Origin: an uncultured Solirubrobacteraceae bacterium
Lineage (GTDB): Bacteria > Actinomycetota > Thermoleophilia > Solirubrobacterales > Solirubrobacteraceae
Length of the DNA: 64,000 bases
NCBI GenBank assembly: GCA_902806175.1
Contig: CADCVQ010000054.1
Span: 62,001-126,000 of the forward strand
Direction: 5' to 3'
Below the pieces are notes generated by a model. The model saw only the letters and a list, made by a program, of their open reading frames with translations, was not told where the DNA came from and made no database searches. Shown one piece after another: positions 49,236-50,621 of the stretch. The translations under genes were made by a program, and so were the position numbers. How positions within the stretch are numbered: the stretch's first letter is position 1; every line of letters starts with the position of its first letter.

Positions 49236-50621
49236 CTACGACACGAGCCCCGCGCCGCGCAGGCAGCTGCGCGCGTGGCGCCCGCTGACCTTGCGACAGC
49301 GCGCGGTCAGCGCCTGCTCAATCGGCTCGAGTGCGGCCAGCACCGAGCCGACGCCCTCGTAGCAGTACGCGCGGTGGCGCGCCGGGGCGCGCGCACACAG
49401 GCGCCCGCCGCGCTCGCCCTCGGCATCGGCGTTGACGATCTCGCGCGCGACGCCGTACAGGCAGTCGCCCTCGTTGGCCTCGGCCAGGCGGCAGCCTGCC
49501 AGCGCCTTGCTCGCGCTCTTGCCGGCGATCCCGGAGACGTCGCGGCCGAAGGACTCAAAGCACGTCTTGACCCACGGCTTCTCGCTGCGCCGGCAGAGGT
49601 CCGCCGTCTTGGCCTGATCGTAGTTGGTGACGCGCAGGAGGTTGGCGGTCACGAGCAGATAGCAGTAGAGCTTGTGGCGCTCGACGACGCTGTTGCAGGG
49701 GTAGATCGGGTCGGTCTTGCGCAGATACTTCGACGTCACGCCATAGGAGGAGTTGAAGTTCTCCATGAAGACGCCGCCGGTGCAGGAGACGCGGTCAAAG
49801 CCCGTGCGCAGGTCGTCGCAGATCTTCAGCGACCCCGGCAGGTCATAGCCCGTGTAGATCATCAGCCCGTGGCCGAGGCCGTGGATGCACTGGTAGAAGA
49901 GAAAGCGCTGCTCGGTGATCTGCGGATCGCTGCACAGCTGGCGCGCGACGACGGCGAGCCTGGCGGTGGGTTGGCCGAGGAACGCCCGCTCGACGATGCC
50001 GTGGTAGTAGCCCGACGCGCAGACCGCGCTGCCGGCGACGAACGCCGGCGCGACCTTGTCCTTGAAGCGCGCCAGCGCGGCCGACCCCATCCGGTGCGCG
50101 ATGCGGTGACAGTCGCCTGCGACCGCCGCGTCGGACGTCATCATCGACTGCAGCCTGTCGAGCGCGGGCTTCGGGCCGTCGTTGAAGACGAGGTTGCCGA
50201 ACGCCTGCTCGAGGCACTCCGTGTTGCCGTCGCGGCAGTCGGCCAGCCGCTTGTCGTCGGGGGCGAACGGCTCTGCGACGGCCTTGCCCGAGGCGTTGCC
50301 GGCGCCGACAAAGGCGGCCAGGTCGGCCTTCTCGTCATCTGACAGCTTGTCGGCGAAGCTCGGCATGATCCCGCCCGGCTTGCGCAGCTGCGCGAGGACG
50401 CGGCGCGGGTTGGGGCTCGCGTCGTCGAGGTCGGGGCCGACGGTGCCCTTGGAACCGGCCGCCTTGAACGTGTGACAGCCGTCGCAGCCCTGCGCCGCGA
50501 ACAGTCGCTTGCCCGCGACGGGGTCGCCGTTGGCGGCCTGCTCGTCGCTCGAGCAGGACACCGGTGCCAGCGCCGCGAGGACGATCAGTGCCAGCCCCGG
50601 CAGCAGGCGCGCGCGCTTCAT
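49236..50621 (-). CDS. Lipoprotein: cytochrome c fused to cysteine-pair repeat domain
   Basis: 461 residues. A lipobox-like VSCSS (Cys23) indicates export and lipidation. Residues ~32-105 are a class I cytochrome c: heme-binding CDGCH near 46 and axial Met in GGIMPSFADKL near 86. The remaining ~350 residues hold about 18 cysteines, with seven pairs spaced C-x9-14-C and usually followed by xxG, plus His motifs YYHGIVE and CIHGLGHGL. I do not recognise this domain. It may be a disulfide-stapled helical repeat or bind further metal or heme. Probably an electron-transfer protein outside the membrane. Confidence 0.8.
   Translation of the reverse strand: MKRARLLPGLALIVLAALAPVSCSSDEQAANGDPVAGKRLFAAQGCDGCHTFKAAGSKGTVGPDLDDASPNPRRVLAQLRKPGGIMPSFADKLSDDEKADLAAFVGAGNASGKAVAEPFAPDDKRLADCRDGNTECLEQAFGNLVFNDGPKPALDRLQSMMTSDAAVAGDCHRIAHRMGSAALARFKDKVAPAFVAGSAVCASGYYHGIVERAFLGQPTARLAVVARQLCSDPQITEQRFLFYQCIHGLGHGLMIYTGYDLPGSLKICDDLRTGFDRVSCTGGVFMENFNSSYGVTSKYLRKTDPIYPCNSVVERHKLYCYLLVTANLLRVTNYDQAKTADLCRRSEKPWVKTCFESFGRDVSGIAGKSASKALAGCRLAEANEGDCLYGVAREIVNADAEGERGGRLCARAPARHRAYCYEGVGSVLAALEPIEQALTARCRKVSGRHARSCLRGAGLVS

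Follow-up and report, generated by a model that had tools for sequence, protein, structure and literature searches.

The window analysed here, a stretch of 64,000 nucleotides from an uncultured Solirubrobacteraceae bacterium (contig CADCVQ010000054.1, positions 62,001 to 126,000), contains on its minus strand an open reading frame (ORF; 50621-49236, stop codon included) for a protein of 461 amino acids, in which a cytochrome c is followed by a cysteine-rich C-terminal domain. The family to which this domain belongs is undescribed in Pfam, NCBIfam and the PDB sequences. A preliminary description of the gene, made from the sequence alone, had drawn attention to the cysteines; going beyond what it had seen, conservation among relatives places the most conserved centre of the domain at five histidines, and sister proteins carry predicted copper domains. 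We propose, with a probability of roughly 0.5, that the protein is an exported, disulfide-stapled solenoid that binds copper at the histidine cluster, and that its cytochrome c exchanges electrons with this copper.

Architecture of the protein

The features of the gene are collected in Table 1. The sequence supports an N-terminal export signal, and the protein is predicted to be exported with a membrane or lipid anchor. Cys23, which directly follows the signal, is a possible lipobox cysteine in a non-canonical setting (PVSC); one orthologue (L006) has the canonical lipobox LTSC at the same place and another (L008) has no such cysteine, so the anchor may be either a lipid or a membrane helix. 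The CDGCH motif of the cytochrome, named in the preliminary description, was recovered at residues 46-50, within a Pfam match covering residues 35-105 (PF13442, E = 3.2e-10; also PF00034, E = 1e-6), and NCBIfam gave a SorU-like match (1.1e-16) under its cut-off. All the marks of a class I cytochrome c are present in this part of the protein, namely CxxCH, a distal methionine and the Pfam match. The C-terminal domain shares 67-79% identity with the orthologues from three congeneric genomes.

Table 1. Features of the cytochrome c-solenoid gene, in positions of the window
Feature	Residues	Position	Strand	Basis
Whole gene, cytochrome c / predicted disulfide-stapled solenoid protein		49236..50621	-	ORF; orthologue identity
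Predicted N-terminal export signal	1-22	50556..50621	-	sequence inspection
Class I cytochrome c domain	35-105	50307..50519	-	Pfam PF13442, PF00034
Heme-binding CDGCH	46-50	50472..50486	-	sequence; CxxCH in 12/12 cytochrome c fusions
Met in GGxMP (GGIMP here), probable sixth heme ligand	86	50364..50366	-	MP in 12/12 cytochrome c fusions
Undescribed C-terminal domain	121-461	49239..50261	-	no library match; AlphaFold2 alpha/alpha solenoid
CHRIAH, first histidine motif (His172, His176)	171-176	50094..50111	-	conservation in 111 domains
CASGYYH, second histidine motif (His207)	201-207	50001..50021	-	conservation in 111 domains
CIHGLGH, third histidine motif (His247, His251)	245-251	49869..49889	-	conservation in 111 domains
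CTGGVFME, Met286 and Glu287 as possible further ligands	280-287	49761..49784	-	conservation in 111 domains
Seven C-x9-14-C hairpins	230-453	49263..49934	-	Cys spacing; AlphaFold2 model

Beyond the cytochrome, the protein contains 18 cysteines (129, 136, 171, 201, 230, 245, 268, 280, 309, 320, 343, 354, 377, 387, 409, 420, 442 and 453), and the chance of finding so many in 341 residues is 1.8e-8 at a background of 1% cysteine and 2.2e-4 at 2%. At least seven C-x9-14-C pairs, most of them followed by xxG, had been reported in the preliminary description; the consecutive pairs number exactly seven, from 230-245 through 442-453, with a glycine three residues past the second cysteine in five of them. 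Successive second cysteines (245, 280, 320, 354, 387, 420 and 453) are separated by 35, 40, 34, 33, 33 and 33 residues.

When the domain was modelled alone with AlphaFold2 from 17 sequences, the result consisted of helices only and formed an alpha/alpha solenoid, with a mean predicted local distance difference test (pLDDT) score of 89.8 and a predicted template modelling (pTM) score of 0.84. Each repeat of the model comprises a short and a long helix, with one cysteine close to where the short helix ends and the next soon after the long one begins; the histidine motifs lie in the first turns of the long helices of the early repeats. In the full-length model the cytochrome c and the linker, a part covered by 4 of the 17 sequences, had pLDDT below 50, and no docking is claimed. 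Foldseek returned zero matches for the domain at E <= 0.001, and the best VIA-align Z scores (7.1-7.5, to large helical solenoid proteins) were within the range of unrelated repeats, so the domain is assigned to no known relative and is not put forward as a new fold.

The view that no described family has this pattern was also upheld by the library searches, in which neither Pfam nor NCBIfam gave a match above the curated cut-off for the C-terminal domain of the window protein, of two further relatives or of 25 members of one alignment. The best domain E-values in these scans were 0.026 (Pfam) and 0.0054 (NCBIfam), scattered over one or two members. Weak matches to Aegyptin_C, DUF7872, DUF7495 and DUF7273, each in one or two members only, were judged to be chance. 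The domain had no match among PDB sequences, either by single sequence or by profile; in the 25 members the Pfam profile of the Sel1 repeat gave no match at E up to 10, and that of the cysteine-rich GLG1 repeat was absent from the matches at the same limit. No paper on this domain was found in the literature, and the motif sequences, sought in papers, gave nothing relevant.

Distribution and conservation of the family

We found 111 distinct copies of the domain, mostly in Actinomycetota and Patescibacteria, in genome samples that do not amount to a census. Relatives occurred in 17 of 396 sampled Actinomycetota, in 14 of 287 sampled Patescibacteria and, with an improved profile, in 30 of the 248 genomes sampled from the window's class; in one Patescibacteria order 10 of 45 genomes were positive, with up to nine copies in one genome. 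A pattern scan yielded one relative from Dehalococcoidia (Chloroflexota), and 301 Chloroflexota genomes contained none beyond one already known genome. Plasmid records of Gemmatirosa (Gemmatimonadota) and Kitasatospora carry relatives, and viral contigs had none. Three Patescibacteria (L099 and L102, from genomes G1066 and G1063, and genome G1356) have seven to nine domain copies per genome of roughly 1 Mb, many in tandem arrays, and some of their proteins consist of a cupredoxin followed by two domains.

The cysteine pairs are conserved across the 111 domains, and inspection of these homologues for invariant cysteines and histidines, as the preliminary description had advised, identified five of the former and three of the latter. 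Neither of the two outcomes that this description had named as refuting it, a confident Pfam match or unconserved cysteine pairs, occurred. Cys245, 268, 280, 309 and 320 never vary, and most remaining pair cysteines are present in at least 95% of non-gap rows; the exceptions are 171/201 and 343/354. Most members have no cysteine in the column aligned with Cys129, which precedes Cys136, and the pair at the end, 442/453, falls outside the shared core of the family. Cys171 and Cys201 are both missing in 17 of the 111 domains and Cys343 and Cys354 in 10, in neither case one alone. Such joint loss fits disulfides, and Cys171 is probably bonded to Cys201. The Fisher p values for paired loss (3.6e-20 and 1.9e-14) were discounted, because the tree needs one change per pair. 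We consider it very probable that the C-terminal domain is a solenoid with disulfides; the confident alpha/alpha fold and the joint presence or loss of predicted pair members support the disulfide-bonded helical hairpins suggested at the outset.

The five histidines are conserved more strongly than the cysteine pairs. They belong to family motifs of the form CHxxxH, GYxHG and CxHGxGH, and the stretches singled out earlier, YYHGIVE and CIHGLGHGL, are indeed present in the window protein. His176, His247 and His251 occur in 111 of 111 domains, His172 in 108 of the 109 letters at its position of the alignment, and His207 in 105 domains, the remaining six having methionine there. At position 286, methionine occurs in 86 domains and histidine in 16 (102 of 111 together), and position 287 is glutamate in 70, glutamine in 16 and aspartate in 16 (again 102 together). 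The 17 domains without Cys171/201 still hold their histidines, as in the Gemmatirosa protein, where GHVVAH replaces CHxxxH; the histidine site is thus separable from the disulfides. In a table of 66 domains, the columns conserved to at least 90% were cysteine, histidine and glycine only, so a metal site fits better than a hydrolase. All five near-invariant histidines lie in the first three repeats, and later repeats conserve little except cysteine and glycine. These patterns make it rather probable that the domain has a metal site at the histidine motifs.

Partners, putative copper site and alternatives

The domain stands behind a cytochrome c in 12 of the 111 copies, in proteins with an N-terminal cupredoxin in 16, with a C-terminal cupredoxin in one (L073), and behind CopC or CopD in seven (six by script label, L045 by Pfam); no further partner type was recognised among the 111 copies, and all recognised ones are related to copper or to electrons. 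In the proteins scanned, Pfam confirmed the partners as Cupredoxin_1, CopC, CopD and cytochrome c, and it found neither of the CopC and CopD domains of the seven relatives in the window protein. The partners retain their ligands: CxxCH and Met-Pro are kept in 12 of 12 cytochrome c fusions, and the CopC ligand positions (the histidine after AHT, and DGH) are intact in the seven CopC sequences read. The partner cupredoxins have WPASDxHPTH-like and HDH-like motifs and no cysteine ligand, and hence are not blue type 1 sites; they possibly hold a histidine-only copper site or a site for another metal. Cupredoxins of this cysteine-less kind were seen fused to or beside the domain in L020, L037, L038, L050, L072, L084, L109 and others; in L109, from one Patescibacteria genome, a separate cupredoxin ORF overlaps the end of a lone-domain ORF. 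On the tree, the cytochrome c fusions form one group with one origin, as do the CopC-CopD fusions, and the N-terminal cupredoxin requires at least five gains or losses.

Copper binding appears probable because relatives are fused to copper-handling proteins and because the five histidines hardly vary, and we lean towards copper as the bound metal. In the mechanism that we propose, the N-terminal His/Met cytochrome c would carry single electrons, the disulfides would staple short to long helices and so keep the solenoid stable outside the cell, and the first repeats would gather His172, His176, His207, His247 and His251, perhaps with Met/His286 and Glu/Asp/Gln287, around a metal that is most likely copper. 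The module would be a copper-handling or copper-enzyme unit, attached in relatives to CopC-CopD (copper uptake) or to a histidine-rich cupredoxin. The cytochrome c, which we somewhat favour as the electron partner of the metal in the solenoid, would donate to or accept from the bound copper, for example by interconverting Cu(II) and Cu(I) or by driving a reaction there. We infer that the five histidines meet in space, that they bind a metal and that this metal is copper, as we do electron transfer, its direction and any substrate. It is only a tentative extension that the family represents extracytoplasmic copper oxidoreductases of a class not described before, with a five-histidine copper centre on a disulfide-stapled alpha-solenoid, a cytochrome c that feeds or drains electrons and, where CopC-CopD is attached, a coupling to copper import.

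Several observations weigh against this proposal. No partner was recognised for two thirds of the copies, and most neighbourhoods, including that in the window, are not copper operons. Each loss of a cysteine pair is one event on the 63-row tree, as is the exchange of methionine and histidine at position 286, so that the counts overstate the support, and the case for copper rests mainly on the fusions. The cysteine-less cupredoxin is no blue electron carrier, and is better evidence of copper binding than of electron transfer. In addition, up to nine copies occur in Patescibacteria, a group often without respiratory chains.

It is possible, although unlikely, that the domain stores or scavenges copper and does no redox work, loading copper in the CopC-CopD and cupredoxin versions for import or detoxification; the cytochrome c version would then be a lineage-specific oddity. 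In plan, the CopC-CopD fusions resemble YcnJ of Bacillus, which carries a YtkA domain at its C terminus and has been proposed to import copper (PMC8424229), and the missing cysteine ligand of the partner cupredoxin points the same way. Against this reading, the cytochrome c fusion has been retained, its heme motifs intact, in no fewer than 12 genomes of a single class.

Slightly less probable is that the histidine site holds non-heme iron (possibly dinuclear), zinc or heme, so that the cytochrome c partners an iron enzyme and the copper partners are incidental. The glutamate, aspartate or glutamine at position 287 is as compatible with iron or zinc as with copper, and six genomes have the cytochrome c fusion in antisense orientation inside or next to the suf gene cluster for iron-sulfur assembly. 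A precedent is deoxyhypusine hydroxylase, a cytosolic di-iron enzyme on a HEAT solenoid, which has His-Glu motifs, no disulfides and no fusion to a redox carrier; it is like the window domain in combining a helical repeat solenoid with a histidine-based metal site, putative in our case, and unlike the window protein, which is predicted to be exported and disulfide-stapled and is fused to a redox carrier. Against a different metal, the CopC, CopD and cupredoxin partners are of copper type, and the columns of the 66-domain table include no invariant carboxylate.

Less likely again is an extracytoplasmic scaffold for protein contacts, in which the histidines hold helices or a structural metal and the fusions merely place it beside redox proteins. 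The modelled alpha/alpha solenoid is plain, and its matches in fold comparison were generic HEAT/ARM-type solenoids at low scores, but a scaffold does not need five histidines that are near-invariant across phyla while later repeats keep little but cysteine and glycine. Finally, the preliminary description had offered further redox cofactors as its second option. The high cysteine content beside a cytochrome c would fit cysteines that hold hemes or iron-sulfur clusters, but this idea is hardly tenable, since the domain has no CxxC or CxxCH motif, its cysteines are mostly 9-14 residues apart in a helical-hairpin pattern, the pairs are kept or missing together, a pair can go while the histidines stay, and the exported location favours disulfides.

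Should the solenoid bind copper, the known copper-handling proteins would gain an all-helical module, CopC-CopD importers would have a counterpart of YtkA, and Patescibacteria, a group with little-known metal physiology, would have a copper protein open to testing. What is predicted is specific, with five histidines at one site. Nothing here shows new chemistry; exported disulfide-stapled alpha-solenoids and metal proteins linked to redox partners are known kinds.

Related systems and gene neighbourhoods

In architecture, the nearest systems are the Hcp and Sel1-like-repeat proteins, alpha/alpha solenoids with 36-38 residues per repeat, of which the Hcp repeats are tied by disulfides and c5321 binds a metal ion between repeats (PMC3851747). 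The window domain is like HcpB and HcpC of Helicobacter in being an alpha/alpha repeat solenoid with predicted disulfides, but it has no Sel1 profile match, a period of mostly 33-35 residues and 9-14 residues between paired cysteines, and its family has five conserved histidines together with copper and cytochrome partners. In plan, the nearest are YcnJ-type importers and copper nitrite reductases linked to redox partners. The CopC-CopD members of the family run from CopC through the membrane CopD to an extra C-terminal domain, as in YcnJ; this extra domain is a cysteine-rich helical solenoid rather than YtkA, and in the window protein a cytochrome c replaces CopC-CopD. Among the copper nitrite reductases, whose catalytic core is of cupredoxin type with type 1 and type 2 copper, one enzyme has this core tethered to a cytochrome c and another has it tethered to the cupredoxin azurin (PMC9358711), the same two kinds of tether as in our family, whereas the window domain is all-helical in the model, without a cupredoxin match or a NirK-type core, and the cupredoxin tethered in relatives lacks cysteine. 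The window domain is not assigned here to any of the compared systems: sequence tests for membership were negative, and for Sel1-type superhelix geometry Foldseek and VIA-align gave only generic solenoids with low scores.

The neighbours of the window gene, named from reading the ORFs, are an M20 peptidase, a DUF1385-like protein, an FtsH-like AAA protein and a glyoxalase-like protein; this order is kept in the orthologue L016 and is uninformative on copper. Elsewhere, a CtaG gene (PF09678, 7.2e-74) adjoins the copy in Kitasatospora, and one cytochrome c fusion has SCO1/SenC about 3 kb away. The six genomes with the suf arrangement (L186-L191) belong to one family of the window's class and have SufB/SufD on one side of the cytochrome c-solenoid gene and SufS, SufU and a Rieske protein on the other. 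This location is not shared by the window's genus. In Bacillus, sufU is induced by copper excess (PMC7999369). As a functional link the suf location is only noted, being antisense and confined to one family. In L186 a DsbD-type protein is nearby as well.

Further observations concern other loci. In two Patescibacteria from different branches of the tree (L105 and L107), the lone-domain gene has a phospholipase D-like gene on one side and secD-secF-like genes on the other. In Solirubrobacter (L022, L026 and L027), the lone-domain gene has a gene resembling an M14 zinc carboxypeptidase, checked by Pfam in L022, just upstream. Elsewhere in the window's own genome (G000:C67; L002 and L003) there is one ORF that joins a cytochrome c to a plastocyanin-like end that has a cysteine ligand, and a second that resembles cytochrome oxidase subunit II with a cytochrome c.
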